Origin: Mesostigma viride | Lineage: Eukaryota; Streptophyta; Mesostigmatophyceae; Mesostigmatales; Mesostigmataceae | Length of the DNA stretch: 64,000 nt | Reading direction: 5' to 3' | Assembly: GCA_009746045.1 (NCBI GenBank) | Contig: RPFO01000017.1 | Coordinates: 580,001-644,000, forward strand | Part shown: in pieces, positions 4,434 through 51,276 of the stretch | Layout: every line of letters begins with the position of its first letter | Numbering within the stretch: position 1 is the first letter of the stretch | Made by a program: the position numbers and the translations under genes | Notes under the pieces: generated by a model | Told to the model about the DNA's origin: nothing | Databases searched by the model: none | What the model saw: the letters and a program-made list of their open reading frames with translations, nothing else

Positions 4434-4860
4434 GTGCACATGATGGCATGTAAGTATTTGTGTGCCATGCGTCGGGGTGTGTCATGGAGTATGGAGGAGC
4501 ATGTGCCCACAACAGCCTTTCTTGGGCCATGCAGGACAAAGGGTGGATTCACAAAATGTTGCAACGCATTCCTATGTTTAAAGCCACGAATCACTTGTAG
4601 TCCATCCCCGCATGCAGAACAAGACGCGGTGGCAGAAGATTGTCAAGGCTCACACGCCCGCCCCTGTGGGCAAGCCACCTCCCCCCAAGAGGAGGCGGCG
4701 TTTTGATGAGTAGTGTAGTTAGGATTTTTCTAGACTAGATAGCTTAGAGTTAGGTTAGTTCGATTACGCGGCTCCCTCCACTCCCCCATCCATCAAGGAA
4801 TATGTGCTACATGATCTCCCAACGGAGGCATGTAATAATTTAGTTTAATTTTAATCCCCG
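4434..4860 (+). mobile_element. 3' end of an RT-bearing LINE, truncated
   Basis: The segment at about 4610-4713 encodes the same basic C-terminus (KPPPPKRRRRFDE, then stop) that ends the reverse-transcriptase ORFs at 33.7 and 41.3 kb. About 95 bp further on is the family stem-loop at 4809-4833 (CTCC, loop CAAC, GGAG), followed by an AT-rich tail. Only the 3' end is present, as expected of a 5'-truncated LINE insertion. Confidence 0.75.
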
Positions 4861-5019: not shown

Positions 5020-5225
5020 TTAATTAATTTAACTCGTGCTCCCGTTGGGGAGTCGTGGAGCACCGAAGTGCTTTTAATCCCTGTATGTGCACTGTCAACA
5101 GGAAGAAAGGGCAGAGACCCCCTTTCTCCTTCATGCCAGCTAGAGGCATGCCACAGCAGCAATCGGACGCGATAGACGATCCGGCAAGTTCTGTGGGTGC
5201 AATAAGACCCATGTGAGCATATCAT
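5020..5225 (-). mobile_element. Family A retroelement 3' UTR and (TTAA)n tail, truncated
   Basis: On the minus strand this is about 200 bp of the 3' UTR seen at 20.1, 34.4, 38.7 and 39.1 kb. It ends in the family A stem-loop (5033-5060) and a short TTAATT tail. No coding sequence is left. The outer stem is broken in this copy (CGT where other copies have CAC), so it looks old. Confidence 0.7.
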
Positions 5226-5516: not shown

Positions 5517-5865
5517 ATGCCCAGAATATGCATTGAAGCACAGCAGTTGATGGCTGACCTAGTGGTCGGGCCAGTGCAGTTTGAACATCGCATTCACTCC
5601 CTCTCTCTTGCTTGGACTGCTATGCAGGACAAGAAGAGGTGGAAGACCATTGTCCAGGCTCATACGCCAGCCCCTGTGAGCAAGCCCCCTCCCCCCAAGC
5701 GGAAGGGGCGCTTTGCTGTCAGAGTAGAATAGGTAGGGTTTTCTAGATTAGATTAGCGCAGAGTTAGATCAGTTCGGTTTCGTGGCTTTGTCCCCCCCCA
5801 TCCATCCACTGGAATACGTGCTACATGATCTCCCAATGGAGTCATGTTATAATTTTTTTTTTTTT
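5517..5865 (+). mobile_element. 3' end of an RT-bearing LINE, truncated
   Basis: The ORF at 5517-5732 is the C-terminal tail of the LINE polyprotein (KPPPPKRKGRF near its end), with LINE-related sequence just upstream. The stem-loop at 5823-5847 has arms ACATGATCTCC and GGAGTCATGT around loop CAAT. Its outer stem (ACATGA with TCATGT) is one base pair longer than in other copies. The tail is T-rich. Confidence 0.75.
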
Positions 5866-5869
5866 TAAA

Positions 5870-5990
5870 TGCCCATAGGAAGTAGCCCAGAGTGTCAAAT
5901 TCAAGTCATATTCCCCTTCTCAGGCGGATATGTGCTACATATTCTCCCAACGGAGTTATGTTCCAATTCAATTCAAATCAATTCAATATG
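5870..5990 (+). mobile_element. ORF1-only element 3' end with (AATTC)n tail
   Basis: The last part of the 3' UTR found at 21310-21760 and 50559-50860, with stem-loop at 5937-5961 and a degenerate AATTC/AATTCA tail. The next LINE copy begins directly at the tail. Confidence 0.65.
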
Positions 5991-7758: not shown

Positions 7759-10070
7759 CCCCCTGCCGCCCGCCCCGCTTCACCAGCGCCTGCACCGGCT
7801 CCCCGCCGTCACCCGGCAGGCCCGGCAAGCCCTGCGCGACAACCGCGACCCCGCCAGCTACGCCCGCCTCAAAGCCGATTACCGGCCACTCGGCCATGCA
7901 TCCGGCAGGCAACCAAGGAGCAGGAGGACCTTCATGTCCGCGAGTACTTTCGCCCACCTCAAGGACCAGCACGGCAAGTACGCCTGGACACGCCTGCGTC
8001 ACGCCCAACGGCCCGCCGGCGGCTCGCAGCCGGCGCCGCGGACGCTCTCTGGCTCACCGCAGCAACAGCTCGCCCCAGTGGTATCGATCCTCCCAGTCCC
8101 GGCCGGCTCGGCGCCCCCCCGCCGCGATCCGCCGCTTGGCCCTCTGGCGGCCGCACGCCTGGCAGTCGCGCCTGCGGACCGGTCCCTGCGCCGCCCACGC
8201 CGCCCGCCGCTGAGCAGGACCGTACACGTACCCAGCCCTGACGGAACCCCTGGCCGACCCCAACGAGCTACCGCCGTTCACCGAGCTCGAGCTGAGCACC
8301 GCCGCCAAGCAACTCGATCCGCTTCTACGCCGCCGTTGGACCTGATCAGCTAGCTCCCAGCCCCGGTGATTAAGCTGACGGCGCTCACGGGGTTCCTGCT
8401 TGACGTCTGCAACCGGATCCTGCTTGCCGACGCGCCGCCGATTCCTGAGTGGCAGCACAGCTACTGTATTATGCTGTACAAAAACAATTAAAGGTTCCCC
8501 TGACGACCCCGCCAACTACCGAGGAGTCTGCATCCAGAGCGCCGCACTCAAGTTGTTCATGCGCATGATCCTTAACCGCCTTCGTTCTGCCCTCGATTGT
8601 CACCTAGGGGAAAGTCAAATGGGCTTTCGTCCTGGGCGCAACTACCGTCATGGCCATCTTCGTCGCGCGTCGCCTCTTTGAGGAAATTGCTCTCCTGCAA
8701 CCTGGTGAGTTTTCCGCCATCCTGATCTTCGTCGAGACTTCATCAAGGCTTTTGATTCTGTCCTCTGGGACGCTCTATGGGCTGTACTTGCTCGCGCTCG
8801 CGTCCCCACTCCCCTGATTACCGTCATCCGCACTCTGTATGAGGGGTCGACCACTTCGGTTCGCACTCAACACGGCATTACCCCGCCATGCCCACTGCAG
8901 ACCGGCGTCTGGCAGGGTTGCGCGTCCTGTCGCCGTACCTGTTTATTTATTGTAGTGGATTATGTTATGCGCAGGCACGTGCTCGCTTTGCTAGCATTGC
9001 ACTGCCGTGCCCCTGGCCTAGCGATCACGAACGAGCTTGGAGAAGGGGGGCCGACTAACAAGCAGAATTTACTAGCTGGCCTCATTTATGCCGACGACAT
9101 CACGCTCATCGAGAAGCCGGAGTCTGCCCAACTTTGGCTGGACTGCCTGGCGCTCGAGGCTCGGGCGGTTGGTCTAGAGACTGAATCAGCCCCAAAACGG
9201 AGGCCCTGGCCCTCGGCATGGCAGGGCCCCCACCCACACTCCGCCTCTTAGACGACACCGAGGTCAACTACCCTCCTTCAGGCCGCTTCAAGCTGCTCGG
9301 CAGTTGGCTTCCCGACTGCGAGGACGACATGACGACAAGGATCGGCATGGCGTGGGCGCACCTCCATGACCACCGCCGCTGGTGGAGTGAACCCCGCCCT
9401 ACCCCGGATCGTCACGCGTGACCTCTTCAATTAGGTCGTCATTCTGACGATCCTGACCTAGGGCGCCGAGACTTGGACACTGACGCATGGGAGCTGGAGC
9501 AACGACTCGACGGCGCCGTCACCAAGATGCTGCGCAAGGCCCTCAACATCCCCTTTTTAACTGCACATTAGTAATGAGGATTTGTACGCTGATTTGCCCT
9601 ATGTTTCCCACATTATTAGGCACAGGCGCCTGGGCCTAGCCGGGCACCTGGCCCGCACAGATCAGGTAGATACATCAGATAGGCTAGCTGGCACCAAGCC
9701 CGCCCAGCCTGGGCGATATGTCCTCACCTGGCGTGCCCCCGGCCGCGCGCGGCAGGGCCGCCACCCGTGGACTTTTCGCCGAGTGATAGACTCGGCATGG
9801 ACATGTGCTACATGCACTAGACGTGACGGGCTCACACCCGGGCAGCCTCCTGGTTTGTCTATATATATGAAGGCAGATGGTGCGCAAGGATAGATGGCAA
9901 GTAGTGATGAAGGAGACCACCCCCAAGCCTGTGGGGGCTCCGCGCGTGACCAAGTATGGCATTCATAGCGATTCGGGCCGCGGTGCCCACACAACTGTAA
10001 CTAGGACCTAGATAGCTTACACCATCCATTCCCGTGATCCCATGTTCCCCTCCCTCTGAGGACTTCTGCT

Positions 10071-10112
10071 CACGTGACGCAGTCACGTGTCTATTAATTA
10101 ATTAATTAATCC
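10071..10112 (+). other. LINE 3' stem-loop and (ATTA)n tail
   Basis: Arms CACGTGAC and GTCACGTG pair perfectly over 8 bp around a GCA loop. The (ATTA)n tail follows within three bases. The sequence differs from the CAAC-loop families, but the layout (hairpin, then simple-repeat tail) is the same. Confidence 0.8.
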
Positions 10113-17640: not shown

Positions 17641-17800
17641 ATTGAAAATGCATGGAAAAAATTGAAATTAAATTAAATTGATACACATCTCCGTTGGGAG
17701 TACATGTAGCACATCATATCCCTGGGAAGGGGCATATGGCTTTTAATACATTCTGGGCTACTTCCATGGAAGGCATAGTTTAATTGCGTGCAAGATTAGC
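17641..17800 (-). mobile_element. ORF1-only element 3' end, truncated
   Basis: Read on the minus strand: the end of the 3' UTR (ggaagtagcccagaatg), the stem-loop at 17707-17683 and a (TTTAA)n-type tail. The stem pairs ACATGT with ATGTGT (two G-U pairs) after one bulged A, then CTCC with GGAG. Confidence 0.65.
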
Positions 17801-18204: not shown

Positions 18205-18787
18205 ACAATTAATTAATTAGACTCGTGCTCCCGTTTGGGAGTCACGGAGCATTAAGCAGCACACCACCTCCACCACCTCCGCCGTCGCAGCCCAGCTTCA
18301 GCGGCAGACGCTTGACCTCCGCGAGGAGGCCGAGCTCGCCAAGCGCAGCCTCAACGTCATTTTCAAGAATCTCAAGATGGAGGAAGGTGAGAATTCCGAG
18401 AAGCTTGCGCGTGCTTTTGAGAGAGAAATCCTTGATCGCATGGGCCTTACTGGTGAGATCGAGCTGGTCGCCCACCGCCTTCCCCGCGCGCGGGGTAAGG
18501 CAGGGCCGCCCCCGCTCCTTCTCACCTTTAAGACCCCGGCGGACAAGATTTCTTTTCTCAGACGCCGCAAGCGGCTCGAGAAGACTCTCTTCACCCTTGA
18601 TGACGACTTGACCCTGGCGCAGCAACAATTAACGGCGACGGGAGCTATGGCCGACCTACCTCCAGCTCCGGCAGACCAAGGCGGGCCAGGGCAGTGTACT
18701 GGAAGGGGGCGGCCATCTACGTCGGCCACAAGCCCTGGCAGGCGACCCCCGCGACCCCAGCGACTCCAGACGCCCCAGCTTAGGGGA
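18205..18787 (+). pseudogene. LINE ORF1 fragment, frameshifted, abutting a minus-strand family A tail
   Basis: Positions 18205-18249 are a minus-strand family A tail and stem-loop. From about 18250 the plus strand encodes ORF1: LREEAELAKRSLNVIFKNL, then HRLPRARGKAGPPPLLLTF and FTLDDDLTLAQQQ. These correspond to the RRM-like and C-terminal domains of L1-type ORF1 proteins (RNA chaperones). After QQQ the frame shifts twice; the family's ending (VYWKGAAIYVGHKPWQ) is recovered in another frame. It is not functional. Confidence 0.7.
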
Positions 18788-21030
18788 ATTAATTAATTAA
18801 TTAATTAAAATCATAGCTCCGTTGGGAGCATATGTAACACATAGCCCTGAGAAAGGGGCATCTATGGCTCGAAACACACGCCCTGATCAAGCATGCTGTT
18901 TCCGGCCCCACCGTCTAGGTCATCTAGTCGCTCTACACGTAAGCCAGCCATAATTTCAATGCACAAGGATACACATTTCCATCACCATTCATCTTCATCA
19001 TCCTGAACGACTCGAAAACGCGGAAAAGATAACGGCAGGCTCGAGCTACCATGGTCCGGATTCTCCCGATTTCTGGCCTGCGCTGGTTGTCTCCTTGATC
19101 TATGGGTTTGTAATACAATCAGGGCTACAACCTGCAGGTGGAGGATGTACAACTGTCACCTGCTCTGGGTGCACAAGGTGCACCTGCACCGCCATGATGG
19201 TTCATGCCTCCTTAACAAGCACAGGCACCCAGGGGGGGCTTGAGGAGAGGGCATAGAAGGCCTGCATGACATATGGGGTGGAGGGTATGTGGCTAGGCTA
19301 TAGCTGGTGTACACATGGCATCTCAGCAGAGAGTAACTCCCTGTGCACATTATTAGGCATCGCATGGCTAAATTCTTAATGCATCATCCATGGGAGGTCC
19401 CATTGTAGGCTGGGCGCGGCTAGATACTGAAAGCATCATCCATGGGGGCCATCAGTCATGGGCGCACATGCGCGTGGGCCACTTGCAAAGGCTAAGCCTA
19501 TCTAATCTACACTACTGGTATATTCCCTAGTCTGGAATGGCAGGAGGGGCCTGCCAGGGCTTGTGGTCAACGTGGATGACCGCCCCCCTCCAGTATACCG
19601 GCTTCCCCCCTGCACGCTGCCGGAGCTGAAGGTAGGTCGGCCATAGCTCGCGTCGCCGCTGTTGCTGGGCCAAGGTCAAGTCGTCGTCCAGCGTGAAGCG
19701 AGTCTCCGAGAGCTTCTTGCGGCATTTAAGGAACGCCAGCTTGTCCGTCATGTACTTAAAGGTGAGGAGCACGGGTGCCGGGCCAGCCTTCCCCCGCGCG
19801 CGGGGGAGGCGGACAGCCGACATGTCCAGCTCACCAGTGATACTTAACATGGGGGCAAGAATGGCGCGCTTAACTGCCTCAAGGAGACTCGTGGAGGTCT
19901 CACCTGCCGGCTGGTCGAAGTGCTTGACGATGACATTGTGGCTGCGCCGGGCGATGTCGGCTTCCTCGCGAAGGTCGAGGGCTTGTTGCTTGATTTGTGC
20001 CGCGATGGTGGAGGTGGTAGGAGGTGGTATGATGCTTAAGCAAGTCCGCCCAGGTGGACCGGGAACATCACTGGCCGGGAACATCACTGACCGGGAACAC
20101 CACTGACATGCTCACACGGGTCTTATTGCACCCACAGTTTGCCGGATCGTTAGCCTGTCCTTTTAGCTAGCCGCGCCCGATTGCAGCTGTGGCATGCCTT
20201 TGGCATGAAGGAGACTGGGGGTCTCTGCCCTTTCTCCTGTAGTGCACACACAGGGATTAAAAGCACTTCGGTGCTCCGTGACTCCCCAACGGGAGCACGA
20301 GTTTAATTAATTAATTAATTAATCACTGGCCGGGCCAGCAGGTGCCGGCTGGGCAGCGATTTCCTGCACCGCTTGGGCGGTGAGGCCGGCGGTGTCATGC
20401 AAGCTCTCAAGGGCGGTGGCGGTGGCTTGAAGGCGTTGGTCGAGGTCGAGGAGCTGGGCTTTGATGTCGGCATGCAGTGAAGGCGGAAACGGCGGTGGAG
20501 GTAGAGGCGGCGGCGGTGGAAATGTGAGGAAGTTCAGCAGTCAGCGTGCCGCCGATTGCTGAAATGTCGGCAGCAAGGGGGGTCACGTGCTGCTGGAAGG
20601 CTTCCGTCAGGATGGAAGGGAGTGTGGGGGCGGAGATGGATGGAGGGCTCCCAGATCTCGTCGTCGGAGCGCTTGAGAAGGGAGTTGAGGATGGCGTGCT
20701 GGAGTTCGGGGCGCTTGCACCCGGGCAGCAGGGTGAGGTGTTGCCAGAGGCGGCCGTCCGGGAGGATGAGGCAATTGTTGTCGTGGAGATGGAGGCACAG
20801 GTCGTAAAGCGAAGCATAGTCCCCGAAGAAGATGCATCGCAGAGCATCGGTCGGAGACGGGTTGGCCCAGTCACGAGTAATCTTCGACCTTGAAAGGCAG
20901 GGGCCGAAAGCTCGGTTCTGAGGGGCGTGAGGACCCTCCGGTTTGGTCGGCTGAGCGGGTGCGCTTGGGGTCAGGCGATGCAGATGGCGAGGCGTTATAT
21001 AAGCCTGGGAGGTTGCTGGACGACCACCAG
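18788..21030 (-). mobile_element. ORF1-only 'half-LINE' with its own 3' module
   Basis: Read right to left. ORF1 coding runs from about 21030 to 20325, including LYDLCLHLHDNN and ILPDGRLWQHLTLLPG. A 220-bp family A insertion occupies 20323-20103. ORF1 resumes to its stop at 19527 (RLPRARGKAGPAPVLLTF, TRFTLDDDLTLAQQQ, HVDHKPWQ). Then come about 690 bp of 3' UTR, the stem-loop at 18835-18811 and a (TTAA)n tail at 18808-18788. No endonuclease or reverse transcriptase lies between ORF1 and the 3' end. The same organisation recurs at 34331-35517, so loss of ORF2 is a family property here. ORF1 of this copy has at least one frameshift near 20890. Confidence 0.75.
20103..20323 (+). mobile_element. 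Family A 3' UTR insertion, truncated
   Basis: About 170 bp of family A 3' UTR, the stem-loop at 20274-20301 (inner arms CTCCC and GGGAG, loop CAAC; outer GTG with CAC and CTC with GAG, each after one bulge) and a TTAATTAA tail. It interrupts the ORF1 of the host half-LINE; CACTG occurs at both edges as a possible short target duplication. Confidence 0.75.
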
Positions 21031-21309
21031 TGCACGACTAGTGTCACCGCTGCCTGCCGGACCTGATGGCGGAGCTGCAGCCTGAGCTGCAGACGTATTT
21101 TAATTGCCGAGCGCAGCCGCCAGGCTGCGTTGCGTCGAGGCGCGTTTATTCGCCATATATTGCGTAATAGCGTCGGAAAATTATATCAGCATGTGCGTCT
21201 TAGAAAGACGAAGCGATTGTGATATTCACAGCTAAATTCGGTGCTCAAACGTGAAAGTTATGAGCTCCGACAGCCATGGCTACCTCGTGGCCGGAATTCG
21301 ATCCGTTAG

Positions 21310-21765
21310 GGGAATACAGCAGTAGTAGTGTAGAATAGATAGACCGTGGCCATGTACATGTACGCCTCCTAGAGGCACTATCCCAGCTAAGCCACGCGCT
21401 TTATTTAATCATGTACATGTGTGCCTACGATGAGCCACACTCCAGATGATGCCTAGCTTTATTTAGTTATGCTGTGCCCATGCAGAGAGTTGCTCTCTGC
21501 TGAGATGCCACGCTCTAGTTTTGTATAGCCATGATTATCTTCCCCCTCACAGGCATGCTCCCCCCTTACCCGGGCATAGCGTGATAGACCATGAGGGTGC
21601 AGGTGCCCTGGTGCACCTAGAGCAGGGGTCCTTTACATCCCCACCCTTGCAGGAAGTAGCTTAGGATGTATGATAGGCCATATGCCCCCTCTCCAGGGCT
21701 ATGTGCTACATATACTCCCAACGGAGTTATGTTACAATTCAATTCAATTCTATATATATATACGA
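21310..21765 (+). mobile_element. ORF1-only element 3' UTR with stem-loop and (AATTC)n tail
   Basis: The 3' UTR matches 50559-50860 closely over its last 300 bp. It ends in the stem-loop 21708-21732 (arms ACATATACTCC and GGAGTTATGT, loop CAAC) and (AATTC)n. It is a 5'-truncated insertion. Confidence 0.75.
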
Positions 21766-33550: not shown

Positions 33551-34319
33551 CATTAAAAATAAAATAAAATTAAATTAAATTATAACATGCCTCCGTTGGG
33601 AGATCATGTAGCACATATTCCTTGATGGATGGGTGGGGTGGAAGGAGCCGCGTAATCGAACTAACCTAACTCTAATCTAGCTAGTCTAGAAAAGTCCTAA
33701 CTACCCTACTCATCAAAACGCCTCCTCCGCTTGGGGGGAGGTGGTTTGCCCACAGGGTCGGGCGTGTGAGCCTTGACAATCCTCTTCCACCGCGTCTTGT
33801 TCTGCACGGCGGTCCAGAGAAGGGAGAGAGAGTGGATGCGGTATTCAAACTGGGCTGGGACCAGTAGGTCATCCAGCAACATCTGTACGTAGTTCGTGAC
33901 ATGTTTCCCTACCCTTTTGGCAATGCCCTTGGGGCCAGGCCAGGTCAGAATGTGCCGCCCTGGCTGGCCAAGCCGCTGGGGGCCGGCCAGACCAAGGGCG
34001 GTGTCGACCTGGCTGGTGCGAGCAAGGTGGACATCCTACAAATGCTATCCTACGCTGTCTAATCTCGTCCGAAATACGAGGCATGCCCTGATACAAAGAC
34101 TCTGATGACGGGCGCTTGGAAAACCCTACGTTGAGGACCTGTCGGAGCATCCTGTAAACTGTGCCGTCTAGCCTAGATGCCAGTGTGGGGGTGAGTGTCC
34201 ACGCCTCGGCGTCATACGTGAGCACCGTGAGGACGAGGACCTTGAAGAGCATGCGCTTGCGGTGTTCGCCCAGGCCCTTGGAGCGCCAGTAGGTGTTGAG
34301 CGAACGGAGCCTAGCCCAG

Positions 34320-34330: not shown

Positions 34331-35517
34331 TAATTAATTAATTAATTAATTAATTAAACTCGTGCTCCCGTTGGGGAGTCACGGAGCACCGAAGTGCTTT
34401 TAACCCGTGTGCACTACAGGAGAATCCCTGTGTGTGCACTACAGGAGAAAGGGCAGAGACCCCCAGTCTCCTTCATGCCAAAGGCATGCCACAGCTGCAA
34501 TCGGGCGCGGCTAGCTAAAAGGACAGGCTAACGATCCGGCAAACTGTGGGTGCAATAAGACCCATGTGAGCATATCATAGCAAGGAGCGTGGGCAAGTAA
34601 TCTGAACATAGCCAGGGCGTAGCATGGCTGTACTAGGACTAGGCTAAGGCTATGGCTGGTTGTGTACCGTGCGTTGGCGGCACGTGACTAGGTGTGTTGG
34701 CACAGCTAGGCAACAGTCTAGGCATGGCTGCCTTAGCGGCAGTGACGCCAATGGTTACAAGCTAGGGCTATTCTAGCCCGCTGGGGGCGTCCACATCTTG
34801 TGGTTGATCATCAGGTCCCCGCCCCTCCAGTACACCTTGGGCTTCTGGGGGTCCTGCTTATGGCGGAGGTATTCCGGCCACAGGTCGCGTCGCTGCTGTT
34901 GCTGAGCGGGGGTGAGGTCGTCATTCAGCGTCCAGGTGAGGTCGTGCAACCGCTTGTGACGAGAGAGGAACCGCTGCTTATCCTCAGGGGAGGGGAAGGT
35001 GAGTAGGACTGGTGGGGGAGCCGCCTTGTCCCGTGAGTGGGGAAGGCGGTGGCACCCACGCAGTTCTACCTCACCTACCAGGCCCATGAGGGTAAGAAGC
35101 TGGTTCTTGAGCTCGTCAGCAAGAGAGGTTGACGTCTCACCTGGCTTCTGGGGGAAGCGACGTAGCACCACTCGGCACTCGCGGCGAGCGCGGTCGGTGA
35201 CCTCCCGTTGCTGGGCCTGGCGGTGGTCCTCCAGCTCCTGGAGCTGTGTGGCGATGGCGTCGGTGGTGGAGGCGGTCGCTGACCGCAGCAGGTCCGCGTA
35301 GGAGAGCGGCGGGAGGTCGCCAGCATCCTGCCGGGGTGGCTGGGATGCAATGGTGGCCGTCTGCTCCGCTATCTTGGGGACCTGTGTGGCCAGGGCCTCG
35401 GTGTGGGCGGTGATGGCCTCAAGCTTCTTCAGGAGCACGCCACACTTGCCCTCCACCTGGTTAAGGCGAGAGACAAGTGCAGCATGCGTTTCCGAAGCCT
35501 GCGCCGCGGTGTGTAGC
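34331..35517 (-). mobile_element. Family A ORF1-only element, 5'-truncated (1187 bp)
   Basis: ORF1 runs to its stop at 34773: a coiled-coil-like stretch (LVSRLNQVEGKCGVLLKK, EAITAHTEALATQV), an RRM-like region (CRVVLRRFPQKPGETSTSL, RLPHSRDKAAPPPVLLTF) and the C-terminal domain (LTWTLNDDLTPAQQQQRRD, MINHKMWTPPAG). After about 385 bp of 3' UTR come the stem-loop 34386-34359 and (TTAA)n. No RT is encoded. The flanking 11-bp duplication marks a single insertion event. The long ORF that seems to begin at 35546 takes its first 10 codons, with the Met, from the host LINE out of frame. Confidence 0.85.
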
Positions 35518-35528
35518 GCCAGGCCAAT
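35518..35528. repeat. 11-bp target-site duplication (right)
   Basis: Second copy of GCCAGGCCAAT. Confidence 0.8.
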
Positions 35529-35627
35529 CAATGCGGGTGTCCACATCGTCGGCTGTGTCAGGAAGCCAGCTCCCTAACAGTTTGAAGCGGTCGCGGATCG
35601 AACCGGACCGTCGTCCCGTCGAGCAGG

Positions 35628-37713: not shown

Positions 37714-38525
37714 CAGCGGCGGTGGACTGGAGGCCCCAATCACCATCGCCTCAGTTTTGACACTAATCTCCAACCCCACCGCCCTCGCCTCCGGCCAGGC
37801 CCAGACAGTCCAGCCAGGTCTGCTGAATGTCTTCGGGGCGCGCGATGAGGGTGGTGTCATCCGCATAAATCAGGTCGGCCAGGCGGTAGCCAGGCTCAAC
37901 CCCGCCGTGCTCTTTCTCGTGAAGGATGTCCAAGCCTGGCTCGAACCCCTTAAGAGCAGTAAAGCGCGCACGTGCTCGGCGCATATGACGTGATCCACAA
38001 CAATAATGAACAGGTATCGGGGGACAGGACACAACCTTGCCACACCCCGGCCGTGGTGAAGGGGGAATGGTGGGGTGGTGCCTTCCGCAGTCCGCACTAC
38101 TGCCTGTGAGCCCTCATACAGCCGGCGAATGGCAGCAATAAACGCAGGTGGCACTCGATCCAGAGCTAGGATGGCCCAAAGAGCCTCCCAGAGGACCGTG
38201 TCAAAGGCCTTGATATAGTCAACAAAAATGAAGACCAGCGGCAAACTGTCAGGGGGAAGGCGACGCACCTCCTCCATCAACCGGCGCGCGACAAACACAG
38301 CCATGACAGTGTTACGACCACGACGGAAACCCATCTGAGACTCACCCGGGTGTGGGTCCAGCGCGGCGCGGAGCCTGTGCAGCATCATGCGCATGAAGAC
38401 CTTCAGCGCGGCGCTCTGGAGGCAGACACCCCGGTAGTTACCGGGGTCAGCAGCAGAGCCCTTCTTGTACAGCATGACGCGGATGGCCGTCTGCCACTCA
38501 GCAGGCGGCCGGGGAGCATGATGTC

Positions 38526-39660
38526 ATGCGGGCCGGGGAAGATCATCATGGCTATACAAGAGCTAAGGCATGGCTTCTCAACAGAGCCGCATCTCTCTGC
38601 ATAGGTATAGCATGGCTAAATTCTTAATGCAAAATCCATGGATGGGGGTCGATCCCATGACAGGCATTAATTAATTAATTAATTAATTAATTAATTAATT
38701 AATTAATCAAACTCGTGCTCCCGTTGGGGAGTCACGGAGCACCGAAGTGCTTTTAATCCCTGTGTGTGCACTACAGGAGAAAGGGCAGAGACCCCCAGTC
38801 TCCTTCATGCCAAAGGCATGCCACAGCCGCAATCGGGCGCGTTAGCTAAACGGACACGCTAACGATCCGGCAAACTGTGGGTGCAATAAGACCCATGTAG
38901 GCGTAGCATAACAAGTATAGCGTGGGCAAGTAATCTGAACACAGCCATGCAGGGCGTAGCATGGCTGTACTAGGACTAGGCTAAGGCTATGGCTGGTTGT
39001 GTACCGTGCGTTGGCGGCACGTGACTAGGTGTGTTGGCACAGCTAGGCAAACATTAGGTAATTAATTAATTAATTAATTAAACTCGTGCTCTCGTTGGGG
39101 AGTCACGGAGCACCGAAGTGCTTTTAATCCCTGTGTGTGCACTACAGGAGAAAGGGCAGAGACCCCCAGTCTCCTTCATGCCAAAGGCATGCATGCCCCA
39201 GCTGCATTCGGGCGCGCTAGCTAAACGGACACGCTAACGATCCGGCAGTCTGTGGGTGCAATAAGACCCATGTGCATGAGCATATCATAGCAAGGAGCGT
39301 GGGCAAGTAATCTGAACATAGCCAGGGCGTAGTAGCATGGCTGTACTAGGACCAGGCTAAGGCTATGGCTGGTTGTGTACCGTGCGTTGGCGGCACCTGA
39401 CTAGGTGTGTTGGCACAGCTAGGCAACATTCTAGGCATGGCTGCCTTAGCGGCAGTGACGCCAATGGTTACAAGCTAGGGCTATTGCTATTCTATCTAGG
39501 CAGCGTGCGGCTGCCTAGATAGATGTTGTAGTTAGAATGCTGTTAGATAGATGTAGTGTGTAGCCAATGTAGATAGATTAGACCGGTAGGAATGTTTGCA
39601 CCCATCCATCCATCCATCCGTGACTCCCCAACGGGAGCACGAGTCTAATTAATTAATTAA
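38526..39660 (-). mobile_element. Tandem pile-up of family A 3' UTRs and tails
   Basis: A fragment of ORF1-only 3' UTR (38530-38665) is followed by two family A 3' UTR copies in the same orientation. Their tails and stem-loops are at 38668-38739 and 39058-39110, and their UTR bodies run to about 39053 and 39485. A short plus-strand tail with stem-loop lies at about 39616-39665. The second copy has a changed inner stem (CTCTCGTTGGGGAG). No coding sequence is present. Confidence 0.75.
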
Positions 39661-40690: not shown

Positions 40691-41165
40691 TTTATCAATT
40701 AATTAGGAACATAACTCCTCTCTGCGCTGGTTGTCTACTTGCCGGATAACTCCGTCGGGAGTATATCAAGGGCCCTTCTCGGGGCTATGTAGCACATAGC
40801 CCTGAGAAGGGGCATATGGCTTTTAATAATAGACTCTCGGCTACTTCCTGCAGGTGGGGGAATGTAAACTGCCACCTACTCTGGGTGCATGCACAAAGGG
40901 CACCTGTCCACCACTGTATTCAGGCACCTAGTCTAGGAGGGTAACCGACAGAGGGGGGAAGATCAGCATGGCTGTACAGAAGCTAGCTAGGGCATGGCGT
41001 CTCAGCCGGCTGAGAGTAGCTCTCTGCGTGGGCACAGCATAAATAAAGCTAGGCATCATCTGGTGTGTGGCGCATCATGGGCACACATGTACATGACTAA
41101 ATAATGCTCATAGGTCAGCTGGTATAGTGCCTGTAGTAGGCGTGCATGTACAAGGCCACGGTCTA
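40691..41165 (-). mobile_element. ORF1-only element 3' UTR and stem-loop
   Basis: 3' UTR similar to 18.8-19.4 kb and 21.3-21.7 kb, read on the minus strand. The stem-loop at 40767-40745 has loop CGAC and outer arms GATA and TATC, which differ from the other copies at both arms and still pair. Confidence 0.7.
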
Positions 41166-42155
41166 ACTATTCTACACTAAAATTAAAAATTAAATTATAA
41201 CATGCCTCCGTTGGGAGATCATGTACATAGCACATATTCCTTGATGGATGGTGGAGTGGAGAGAGCCGTGTAATCTAACTAACCTAACGCTAATCTGCCT
41301 AGTCTAGAAAAATCCTAACTACCCTACTCATCAAAACGCCTCCTCCTCTTGGGGGGAGGTGGTTTGCCCACAGGGTCGGGCCGGCGTGTGAGCCTAGCTT
41401 GACAATCTTCTGCCACCGCGTCTTGTTCTGCATGGCAGTCCAAAGAAGGGAGATCGAAAGTGGATGCGGTATTCAAACTGGGCTGGGACCAGTAGGTCAT
41501 CCAGCAACATCTGTACGTAGTTCGTGACATGTTTCCCTACCCTTTTGGCAATGCCCTTGGGGCCAGGCCATGCCAGGTCAGAATATGCCGCCCTGGCTGG
41601 CCAAGCCGCTGGGGGCCTGCCAGACCAAGGGCGGACTGGGCGGTGTCGACCTGGCTGGTGCGAGCAAGGTGTCCTACAAATGCTATCCTACGCTGTCTAA
41701 TCTCGTCCAAAATACGAGGCATGCCCTGATACAAAGACTCTAATGAGGGGCGCTTGGAAAACCCTACGTTGAGGACCTGTCGGAGCATCCTGTAAACTGT
41801 GCCGTCTAGCTTATTAGCTGCCAGTGTGGGTGTGAGTGTCCACGCCTCGCCGCCATACGTGAGCACCGTGAGGACGAGGACCTTGAAGAGCATGCGCTTG
41901 CGATGCATGCTCGCCCAGGCCCTTGAAGCGCCAGTAGGTGTTGAGCGAACGAAGCCTAGCCCAGGCCAGGCCGATGCGGATGTCCACATCGTCGGCGGTG
42001 TCAGGGAGCCAGCTCCCCAACAGTTTGAAGCGATCGCGGAACGGGACCTCCGTCCCGTCGAGCAGGCGCGGCAGAGGCGGGGTGCTAAAGGCCCCAATCA
42101 CCATCGCCTCAGTTTTGACACTAATCTCCAACCCCACCGCCTGCGCCTCCATTCT
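41166..42155 (-). mobile_element. RT-bearing LINE, 3' part
   Basis: Starts within the RT ORF (EAQAVGLEISVKTEAMVIGA, LLDGTEVPFRDRFKLLGSW) and continues through KVLVLTVLTYGGEAWTL and QRRIAFVGHLARTSQVD to the KPPPPKRRRRFDE stop near 41327. The stem-loop is at 41224-41200. This is the best-preserved C-terminal copy and serves as the reference for the interrupted one at 33.5-38.5 kb. Confidence 0.85.
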
Positions 42156-44957: not shown

Positions 44958-47454
44958 TTACACTTATTTTTTAAAGTTAATTACTCAAACAGTTTGCACC
45001 CCGTGGCCCTCTCAACGGAGGCACCAGAATGAGTGAAAGAACGAATACTTATGCTATCCGAGTTATGGATCCCATCATGGAGTCACAGTGCATGGTGAAG
45101 CGCTGGCTGACAAGTACAATCCATCCTGATGATAACTCATTACGCCAGAGACTCGCCATCCGTGACATCTTCCAGGGACTAAGGAATGGACCTCCTTGAG
45201 AAGGGTAGCCCTTGCGTAGCATAGTATGAGGTTTACCGGAACTTGAAACAGCATGCCTTGTGAGACGCCGGCTGGCAAATTCAAGCATGGCGATAAGCTA
45301 TCAGCCGCGGACTCACCATCAGTGACTCGATGTTCACCGCTGCCGAGTTTCTAGTTACGGCACGTCTGCTTGGCCGCGAGCGCGTGTATTGGCGGTTTAG
45401 ATGCCGGCTGGGCGCATGCAGCTTGGAAAACCACCCGGTAACAAAAGCTGATTGCGGGCAAGCTGTGGAGCTCACTCGAACTGCGCTCCTCACTATGTGA
45501 TCAGCCGAAGAAGGATGTAAACCGGCAGCTTGAGCGTACGTTGCGCATAAATGACTCCGCACGGCGGATTGGACCAGTAGGTAACACATTCTTTTACCCT
45601 CGTTGATAAGCAGCGATTGCGCCCTGATATTTACCCGGGTTTTCAGCTCATTACGAAAGGGCTGGGCAAGAGCCACACTTCAAATTAACTCGAGCTGCGC
45701 ACTCGATGTGCGCCCCGGCGATGGAGCCGAAATTGATTGCAATCCACGTCACGTGCGTCGGGTGCATGAAGCAATCAGCTGCTGCTTCTGGACAGGAGGG
45801 GTGGCATCCATGCAGCCAAGGGTCCGCGGTCACAAAAAACCACCACCGGACAAAAAAGGCCGGGCCCGCGGTCCAACCATGACGCGTGGACCGCAACCGG
45901 CACCCAACGCTGCTGGTACCACGGTAGCGCCGTGGTACCCGCCGGCCGCCGCCGGCAAGCAAGAGCCGGTACCATGGTTACCCCCTCGTACTCCTATTTG
46001 CGGTAACTATCCTTACTATACCCACTAAAGTGAACTTTCTACTACTATTCTGCTCTCTCCGTACTCCAGTATTCTGCCACGTGGCAACTCAACAACCCTC
46101 AAAACAAACTGACCCACATGCCGGCACACGTGGCATGCGCCTGCCTGTTCAAGGTCAGTGATGGTCATTCAAGTTCAACTTTGCACGTGGCAGGCCTGCA
46201 CAGGTACAGTACCTACAACACTATCCACGTGGCATACTTCTACTGGTCCATAGCTACCACCGCGGTCCTGAGCCAACCCGGCGTGATGTACAGCCCTGGT
46301 CTAACATATTACACGTGGCAGATTTCTAAGTACTGGGCTGTAGTAAAACCACGGTTCTGATCACCCAGGGTCCACGAACCGCCACCGGCAAGTTTTAGAC
46401 CCTCAAACCCCGCGGTTAACCATGGGCCCCGCGAAAATCCACCACCATCAGCCCCTGGGACAACCCTCTCTGGTACCGCAGTTCCAGAAAATTTTGCCCG
46501 GGCATGCCACCCCTCCTCACAACTTTATGGAGGCTTTATGGACGTCACCCGACTACGCAGACATTACCTGGCTGTCGGCGACACTCCCGGAGCATGAGTG
46601 TGTATGGAGGGGGGAGGGGGGCGGGGTTAGAACGCCCCCTCCCTACCCCAAAAACTGGGGGCGGGGGGTAAAGGGTCGGACCCCCCCACACACACACAGA
46701 GAGAAAATGGGTGGGTGGGGTGGGGATGCACAACCCCCCCCTCCCCCCCTGAAAAAAAAGGGGGGGGGGGGGGGGGGGGTCGCCAGCCAAATTCTTTTTT
46801 TTGGCTAAGGGAGCGGGTCCAAGAATGTACATCCGTCGCACCCATTCTCCTAGCCCTATGAATTATGATGGTAGGCTGAGCACAGCACCTCCAAATTCAG
46901 CCATTTGTGGCATTGGAATTAACTTGGTTAGACAATACCTACTTATTAGCCAATCACATTGGACAACTCATACCTTCACCGGCCATACATACGGCTAACT
47001 CGCCCTCCTGCCAAACGTGGCATGTTGACTGTCCCGCCGTCATCATCCTCCGGGTTATCAGACTGCAGCCGCACATGATCATCGTCGTCGAAGACTGACC
47101 GGTCGGCGTTGAGGCCGACATGATGAAGAGGGATGAGTGAGCGGCAGTGGCCAGCCCGGAGGCAGTCGGTGATGAGCGGCCGCCCCTCCGCACCCCTTTT
47201 TGAGTTCTTGATGAGCGACAGCAGTTCGAGTGAGCTGCAGAGCCCGGGAGCATATCCCGCCTTCAAAAGTGCTCAGGAGAATTCCCGCTTTGTAGCAATT
47301 CCTGCGCTGTTCCCGCGGTGAACCCCAATTGAAATTTAATTTGTTTGGTCGGGGATCAAGACCCCCCGGCCACCTCCCCACACCCTGGAAAACGGGGGGG
47401 CGGGGGGTGGTATACACATGCCGGCTCCGGGAGTGGCGCGGACTGTCAGCCAGT
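44958..47454. other. Intergenic with clustered ACGTGGCA motifs
   Basis: No gene recognised. A perfect 10-bp inverted repeat lies at 45915-45939 (GGTACCACGG, 5-nt loop). Five ACGTGGCA motifs lie at 46079-46320. C/G homopolymer tracts lie at 46735-46780. Confidence 0.5.
46079..46320 (+). promoter_or_regulatory. Five ACGTGGCA (G-box-like) motifs
   Basis: Exact 8-mers start at 46079, 46128, 46185, 46227 and 46313. ACGTGGC is the core of plant ABRE/G-box sites bound by bZIP factors. No adjacent gene was found, so function is unproven. Confidence 0.35.
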
Positions 47455-47548: not shown

Positions 47549-47811
47549 TTATCAAGGAGACAACCAGCAGTTTATGAAGTGAGACAACTATGCATGGACG
47601 CATGGCGATCTAGTGTATCTTTAGTTAAACTTAGTAGAATTAGGTAGAGCAATTCATGCAGCCTGAGTACAACAATTGCCAGATTGATGTTCAGAGGTCC
47701 GACCGCCGCAATATTTTATTTATGCTTGAAAGTTGACAGTCTGAACACCAGTTGTGCTCTGACAGGGAGTCCACTGTAGTTAGTAAGTATGTACGTACGT
47801 ACGTAAGTACT

Positions 47812-49588
<1,777 letters not shown>

Positions 49589-50547
49589 AAAGTTAGTAAC
49601 GAGTTAGTTAGTGACCCTCCTCTTGCTGGACGGCAGCCCCGACCCCCCGGCGACTCGCTTCAAGCTCCTTGGCAGCTGGCTTCCCTCCACGTACTGCCGA
49701 CGACATCAACACCCGCATTGGCCAGGCCTGGGCGGCCCTCCGCCGCCTCGACAGGTTCTGGACCTGCCGCTACCTTCAGGAGTGAGCGACGCAAGCGCAT
49801 TCTGTTCAAGGCCCTTGTCCTCAGCATCCTCCTTTATGGCTGCGAGGCGTGGACCCTGGACCAGGCGCTGAGCCAGCAGCTTGACGGCACCATCACTCTT
49901 ATGCTCCGTCATATCCTCGGCGTCCGCTAGCCTACCAAGAACGCCGCACCCGGGCCGAGCTCTACTGCGAGCTCCCTCTTGTCACCCATACCATCCGACA
50001 CCGCCGCCTCCTCTTCAATTGCCGGCCATCTTGCCCGCACAGACCAGGTGAATACCGATGTGGGCCCTGCCGCGGGGGGCTTAAGACGGGCCAACCAGGT
50101 AGACACCTCCTCCTATGGCAGGGTCCCCTTGTCCCATCGCAACCCACTGGCAAGCTTGCGCGCGCCGGGCACCGGCGCGGCGCGACCCGGACCTATGTGA
50201 CACAACTGCTTGAAGATGTGCACAGGGCTTCCCGGCGGGACTATCCGTACTCCGCGCCCGCATGATTGACTTGATCGCAGAAATGGGCTGCCATCTGCGA
50301 TAAGCACCTTCCTGAGGGGTATGCCCCGCGCGGCCCGGCGGTGCTAGCCAGGGTAGAAGTCCGCAGGTGGACGGGTTATTGGTCCTGAGGATAGCCGCTA
50401 CACTACCGTCTCGTCTGCCATTACAGTAGAGGACAGCTCGGATGAGGATTACATCCCCATCTAGTGCTTAACGGTTGGGGGATGATGCAGACGATATTTG
50501 TTTAAACTTTTGTGTAATTATTTTTCTAATAAGATTAGCATAGTACT

Positions 50548-50558: not shown

Positions 50559-50860
50559 TTAAATATTTAGTTATGCTGTGCCCATGCAGGGAGTAGCTCT
50601 CTGCTGAGACGCCATGCCCTAGCTTCTTTGTATAGATATGCTGATCTTCCCCCCCATGACAGGCTCCCCCTTCGCTGGGCATAGCTTGAAGATCATGGGG
50701 ATGCACGTGCCCCAGGGTGCACCTAGAGCAAGGGTCCTTTACATCCCCACCCTTGCAGGAAGTAGCTTAGGATGTATGATAGGCCATATGCCCCCTCTCA
50801 AGGGCTATGTGCTACATATACTCCCAACGGAGTTATGTTACAATTCAATTCAATTCAATT
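50559..50860 (+). mobile_element. ORF1-only element 3' end, 302-bp insertion
   Basis: 3' UTR nearly identical to 21410-21760, with the stem-loop at 50814-50838 and an (AATTC)n tail. A perfect 11-bp duplication flanks it. The insertion landed inside the 3' hairpin of the (TTAC)-tailed LINE. Confidence 0.88.
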
Positions 50861-50871
50861 CAGTGGCATGC
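50861..50871. repeat. 11-bp target-site duplication (right)
   Basis: Second copy of CAGTGGCATGC. Confidence 0.9.
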
Positions 50872-50984
50872 CTTTGCGCATATGACACGCAAGTACTTAC
50901 TTACTATGCGATCACATACACTTTTCGGACTATGGGTTAAGTTAGCGAGTTAGTCTGTAAGTTAGTGAGTTAGTAAGTATGCAA

Positions 50985-51276
<292 letters not shown>

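Follow-up and report, generated by a model that had tools for sequence, protein, structure and literature searches.

A CAAC hairpin at the 3' ends of LINEs and ORF1-only elements in Mesostigma viride, a probable recognition signal for LINE reverse transcription

How the enzyme of a LINE discriminates its own RNA, and how passenger elements exploit that choice, has to our knowledge been settled experimentally for only a few elements. The UnaL2 and ZfL2 LINEs probably belong to a clade other than that of the LINEs described here. Their 3' stem-loop is read specifically at the loop and in a general way at the stem, a single bulged stem base being needed in UnaL2; a swap of the stem is tolerated while a swap of the loop is not (Hayashi 2014, PMC4176376). 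In maize, LINEs of the L1 clade and SINEs share a 3' hairpin with compensatory changes (Ohshima 2013, PMC3747384).

Here, we analyzed a 64,000-nucleotide stretch of the Mesostigma viride genome (the window), in which the earlier note had found ten copies of a short hairpin by eye. All ten are present where it had placed them, except that the copy listed at 40745 starts at 40744. Aligned by structure, they follow one gapless plan of 25 nt, with an outer stem of 5 bp, a 1-nt bulge on the 5' side, an inner stem of 5 bp and a tetraloop, and each keeps at least nine of the ten pairs if G-U is allowed. The family A copy at 21708..21732 on the forward strand (ACATA-T-ACTCC CAAC GGAGT-TATGT, 10/10 pairs) lies in A sequence spanning about 21306-21753 and is followed by a CAATT-repeat tail. 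Also on the forward strand, the hairpin at 50814..50838 terminates an A copy of about 300 nt (50564-50862) whose insertion interrupts the 3' UTR of a LINE with an ACTT tail, and another of A type stands at 5937..5961 (9/10 pairs). Family B is represented on the forward strand at 4809..4833 (ACATG-A-TCTCC CAAC GGAGG-CATGT) and, with a CAAT loop and nine of ten pairs, at 5823..5847 (B type), and on the reverse strand at 33585..33609 and 41200..41224, located 99 and 102 nt past the end of a B-LINE ORF2, which in the former case reads KPPPPKRRRRFDE. The reverse strand also carries ACATG-T-ACTCC CAAC GGAGA-TGTGT at 17683..17707 (9/10 pairs, two of them G-U) and the family D hairpin ACATA-T-GCTCC CAAC GGAGC-TATGA at 18811..18835, placed 694 nt past the family D ORF1 (19530..20111, same strand). 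The remaining copy, at 40744..40768 on the reverse strand, is of A type with a CGAC loop, is decayed or interrupted, and has no tail immediately behind it.

Seven further window hairpins, absent from the earlier ten, follow the identical plan with a second stem type, CCGTG-A-CTCCC-CAAC-GGGAG-CACGA, whose outermost pair is open (up to three mismatches; 0.00 expected). Family E hairpins of this kind occur on the reverse strand at 34360..34384, with an AATT tail and 391 nt past the E ORF1 (34776..35573), at 38713..38737 and 39084..39108 (the latter with one mismatch), both followed by AATT tails, and at 5034..5058 (two mismatches); on the forward strand, one with an AATT tail lies at 20276..20300. 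The E2 type is present at 18223..18247 (reverse strand, AATT tail, loop AAAC in this copy) and at 39618..39642 (forward strand), where the hairpin and its AATT tail form the 3' end of an E2-LINE.

With up to one mismatch, CTCCCAACGGAG matches the window 11 times against 0.32 expected, a number reached by none of 100 shuffles; the eleventh match, at 45009, is without a repeat tail. In the 440 Mb genome, exact CTCC-CAAC-GGAG cores number 13,688 (21 for the reversed pattern) and exact CTCCC-CAAC-GGGAG cores 8,576 (15 for the reversed pattern), more than 22,000 together. A scan of the hairpin plan with any loop over 315 kb, comprising the window and 84 loci of which the majority were fetched via LINE proteins, placed CAAC at the top with 88 sites, followed by TGAG with 34, mostly from one repeated stretch. 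The reversed control gave 66 GTTG sites and is no clean null, since CAAC hairpins read backwards still pair. Rfam returned no match.

Minimum-energy folding recovered the outer stem, the 1-nt bulge, the 5-bp inner stem and the tetraloop in all seven CAAC-type hairpins folded; A, B, B' and C have five outer pairs, E and D four, and E2 three. The fold z-score was weakest for D (-1.66) and strongest for E (-4.09), with -4.23 for a longer A stretch. Immediately 5' of the CAAC hairpin, a second hairpin is predicted in the A, E and E2 3' ends, with unrelated sequences.

To establish which elements carry the hairpin, loci were picked by protein match, so that the carrier counts are unbiased by the hairpin itself; the protein searches scored only the best 144-150 candidates, and the sampled copies are thus the most alike. 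The earlier claim that RT-bearing LINEs and ORF1-only elements have this hairpin in common is borne out on both sides. The B-LINE, an EN-RT element, is represented on the reverse strand of the window by a reverse transcriptase core (37873..38523, RVT_1 E 8.6e-11), an ORF2 C-terminus (33709..34035) and a further C-terminal part (41540..42097), which served as the genome-search query (best 150 scored of 17,959 candidates). Its hairpin appears in 27 of 30 loci at up to three mismatches, 291-342 nt past the query match in 25 of the 27; among the three loci without a match at that threshold, one holds an inserted stretch and two show no hairpin. For the E2-LINE the hairpin is present in 19/19 loci. 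The best 150 scored copies of the C-terminal piece of its ORF2 are 99-100% identical, and one copy (L188) has an ORF2 frame of 1,181 aa with Exo_endo_phos (E 1.7e-6) and RVT_1 (E 1.4e-25) matches. The ORF2 proteins of the B-LINE and the E2-LINE are 52.5% identical over 876 aligned positions.

On the ORF1-only side, family E has the hairpin in 30/30 loci, always 358-545 nt past the ORF1 match, a distance that leaves insufficient room for an RT between ORF1 and the 3' end. Its frames measure about 455-465 aa in many copies, and the best 144 scored are 97-100% identical to the query. In four E copies (L036, L037, L039 and L050) the C-terminal 300 aa of ORF1 are nearly identical and the N-terminal parts clearly different, as if the latter had been swapped or were changing fast. 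For family A, an ORF1 of the type found at 18221..18793 (forward strand) closely precedes the A 3' UTR in two loci with the hairpin (L005, L077) and in two others where the element is cut (L073) or broken (L048) before reaching it; family D is represented by one ORF1 copy, in the window. Family A was also considered as RT-bearing and rejected in that role: the RT beside 50814 belongs to the ACTT-LINE, a sister LINE discussed below, into whose 3' UTR the A copy is inserted.

An AT-rich tail follows 74 of the 82 hairpin copies sampled genomically, against 3/82 for an upstream control stretch, and 13 of the 82 are decayed, keeping four or fewer of six pairs (the outer five plus inner-1). The earlier note had put a repeat or AT-rich tail behind every window copy, which fails at 40744, where non-repeat sequence follows and AATT repeats begin only about 40 nt later. 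This copy forms, together with L028 and L033, a family A subgroup in which the right arm passes into TTATC and from there into an unrelated stretch with AGACAACCA where the tail would be; about 30 nt downstream, the window copy shows TTATGTTCCTAATTAATT again.

Could the hairpin have been left behind by common descent? Under plain inheritance, the ORF1-only elements would have arisen from LINEs by internal deletion, and the hairpin would be a leftover with no function as a copying tag. The proteins are indeed related: identity to the ORF1 product of E is 40% for A, 43% for D and 35% for the ACTT-LINE. They are identified as ORF1 because, in one ACTT-LINE (L064), the related protein (the one 35% identical to that of E) comes ahead of an EN-RT frame of 1,197 aa and overlaps it; Pfam returned no family above cut-off for three ORF1 pieces. 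Over the 200 nt that precede the hairpin, a weak likeness is found for A/D (z=7.1), B/E2 (z=5.1) and B'/E2 (z=3.1), and parts of the 3' UTR were thus inherited. However, an internal deletion would leave a shared upstream 3' UTR, and E/E2 (z=1.1), E/B (z=-0.9) and A/B (z=0.2) do not exceed shuffles, although an unsampled parent LINE is possible. Ahead of the hairpin, A and B share only TATGTGCT, some eight bases immediately before it that are also common to C and F. The near-identity of the best-scored E copies, with the hairpin in all 30 E loci read, also argues against a mere leftover. We therefore regard inheritance as an unlikely explanation. Since those three upstream comparisons equal shuffles, the RT-bearing LINE and its likely passenger share little beyond the hairpin and the tail, the same pattern known from LINE/SINE pairs.

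Whether selection acts on the RNA structure, as the earlier note concluded from stem changes that preserve pairing, depends on the level at which the copies are compared. Within the ten window copies, the fifth outer pair alternates between A-T and G-C as the note had claimed, and so does the switch from A-T to G-C at the pair adjoining CTCC hold in the copy at 18811; the other outer pairs, by contrast, change only by single-sided loss, by wobble or in the odd copy at 40744. Taken from the window alone, the covariation is suggestive; what carries the case is the comparison of one family with another, and the E stem most of all. Across families the bulge position and the loop, which is CAAC or CCAC and rarely anything else, barely change, while the stem pairs differ and mostly remain paired. 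In 14 hairpin types, which were chosen from copies seen and are thus not independent draws, 96.4% of cells are paired against 85.1% in shuffles (0/500 as high), and five of the ten pairs show changes on both sides. The covariation score is 0.327, compared with 0.099 for shuffled and at most 0.058 for slid partners; the 11 further pair types were reached by 11 of 500 shuffles. Four of the ten pairs are invariant, and the outermost departs by unpaired cells only. The change to the E stem keeps nine of ten pairs from B (p=0.0067); for the change from A, p=0.0006. Still, the signal is modest, because the E left arm against an unchanged right arm would already hold 8 (B) or 7 (A) of the 10 pairs, and it depends on one deep branch.

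At the level of individual copies the picture is more mixed. We sampled 82 of the first 83 core places among the 100 matches listed (one skipped), all on contig C1 and anchored on CTCCCAACGGAG, which leaves the outer stem free. Only two pairs covary in this sample: outer-5, paired in 76 copies against 48.7 expected under independence (AT 32, GC 28, GT 6, CG 5, TG 5), and inner-1, paired in 69 against 45.9. For the four outermost pairs, the 82 copies match what independence predicts. When changes were placed randomly on a tree of the copies, in the manner of R-scape and with our own script, outer-5 ranked first among 300 column pairs, but with E=0.14; non-stem pairs came second and third (E=0.2 and 0.54), and inner-1 had E=8.8. 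Pairing is kept in the family-level changes, and the earlier interpretation is supported in part. One could then suppose that the 25-mer is a primary-sequence motif whose pairing changes arose by chance, a reading in agreement with the independence of the four outermost pairs, with the lack of significant tree-corrected covariation and with the identical stem of most of the 22 E-type copies in the sample. Against it stand the two-sided changes across types, the excess of pairing at outer-5 and the p-values of the E stem, and we judge conservation of sequence alone to be quite improbable.

Other loops in the same genome offer a further comparison. The ACTT-LINE, whose ORF2 is 50.4% identical to that of B and 45.7% to that of E2, ends without a CAAC loop, in CGUG-G-CAUGC-CUUUGC-GCAUG-A-CACG within AGUACU/AGUACU, a hairpin found in 15 of 20 loci at up to three mismatches; its outer CGUG/CACG is that of E2. 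E2 hairpins were considered as the 3' end of the ACTT-LINE itself and rejected, as in L071 and L074 they are positioned after a complete ACTT end; the true E2-LINE was identified via L043 and L051. In 4/20 loci (L065, L066, L071 and L074), a B or E2 3' end lacking its 5' part lies behind a complete ACTT-LINE 3' end, in the same orientation. Nested insertion could account for this arrangement, as could a template jump in the course of target-primed reverse transcription. Long AGTA/GTAA arrays at 47778-49599 and 50957-51269 of the window, beside ACTT-LINE pieces, match the tail repeat of this LINE and may be expanded ACTT-LINE tails. A fourth RT family (window positions about 8366-9950, and L075) has behind it an 8-bp hairpin, CACGTGAC-GCA-GTCACGTG, at 10071-10089 in the window, and then AATT repeats; as a fold this hairpin stands out little from shuffles (z=-1.43, 20/200 as good). 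Finally, in loci not selected by hairpin, the loop is CCAC in 11 of 28 B hairpins and in 0/13 of the A, C and F hairpins. Four of five D copies also have CCAC, the window copy being CAAC; if the enzyme reads the loop, D may fall within a CCAC branch of B.

These observations also bear on the idea that the hairpin serves to terminate transcription, form the 3' end or stabilise the RNA instead of being recognised by the RT. Its location at the 3' end, ahead of an AT-rich tail, is what such elements would be expected to show. However, the tails immediately behind it are family-specific repeats (AATT, CAATT, TTTAA), which fit a start of reverse transcription at that point, and a sister LINE of the same host has a different loop and a different tail. 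A role of this kind in place of recognition seems to us the least credible of the alternatives.

Taken globally, the several families that end in the hairpin, with or without a copying enzyme of their own, make it probably a tag for the enzyme's choice of RNA. We propose, with a probability of roughly 80%, that a LINE machinery of the stringent type recognises its templates by the CAAC hairpin at their 3' ends, a signal that the ORF1-only elements would use in trans. Mechanistically, the ORF2 protein of the LINE would bind the RNA of the hairpin, with specificity for the loop and by shape in the stem; target-primed reverse transcription would start in the tail, whose repeats would arise through slippage. 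By carrying the hairpin, ORF1-only elements would be copied in trans by the ORF2 of the B-LINE or of the E2-LINE. As regards the enzyme, a phmmer search against solved RTs gave a best E of 1.3e-12 (an entry named Reverse transcriptase-like protein), followed by human L1 ORF2p (1.4e-11) and R2 (8.8e-11), and we make no clade assignment from these scores. Among the CAAC-LINEs the EN-RT linker, a candidate loop-reading region, is not significantly more alike (Fisher p=0.10), with the same tilt in the EN domain.

A bolder extension of this recognition model, which we consider doubtful, is that the loop would serve as an address by which the LINEs within a genome fall into separate compatibility groups. 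These groups would be two-part systems in which the E2-LINE gives EN-RT and E gives ORF1p, bound by mutual dependence and not by parasitism, and changes of loop would found new groups: the ACTT-LINE (CUUUGC), the fourth RT family with its GCA loop, and the CCAC subgroup, in which B and D would have changed in parallel. E and the E2-LINE do have the same hairpin and many near-identical copies each. No ORF1 match occurs in the 1,854 nt that precede ORF2 in the E2-LINE copy mentioned above (L188:1-1854), although this copy is possibly 5'-truncated; the E2-LINE may be without an ORF1.

With ORF1 and no RT before the 3' end, family E has a feature of half-LINEs. HAL1 (half-L1) of mammals is likewise an ORF1-only non-autonomous LINE derivative; its recognition is of the relaxed, poly(A)-dependent kind, unlike that proposed here, and we know of no shared 3' hairpin in HAL1. 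The relation between a LINE and its partners through a 3' hairpin is already known, and the case described here is an unusually abundant, fresh example of it; a CAAC hairpin common to LINEs and ORF1-only elements was absent from the titles and abstract openings searched, a coverage that excludes most subscription papers and Repbase. Its value lies in offering a natural series for loop-specific recognition: exact cores abound genome-wide, two RT families have one loop in common, loop and tail are altered in a sister LINE, and the passengers code for ORF1. In such a series one can also ask whether half-LINEs live as parasites or supply ORF1p.

Among the described systems, the Chlamydomonas pair L1-1_CR and SINEX-3_CR resembles ours in that a 3' end of about 80 nt is common to a LINE and a non-autonomous element, but the tail is poly(A), the passenger is a tRNA SINE and the available part of the source describes no hairpin (PMC3747384). 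UnaL2, ZfL2-1 and ZfL2-2, stringent LINEs of the L2 clade, likewise end in a stem-loop with a short repeat tail behind it (PMC4176376); their loops are different, and the passenger tested was an eel SINE (PMC3747384), whereas the putative passengers here are ORF1-coding elements. LINE1-1_ZM of maize and sorghum, with ZmSINE2 and ZmSINE3, likewise places a short 3' hairpin with compensatory changes on a LINE and on non-autonomous elements, there with a UCU loop, CGAG behind the stem, SINE passengers and, where listed, T-repeat tails (PMC3747384), and here with a CAAC or CCAC loop, a fixed 5' bulge and tails of the AATT type.
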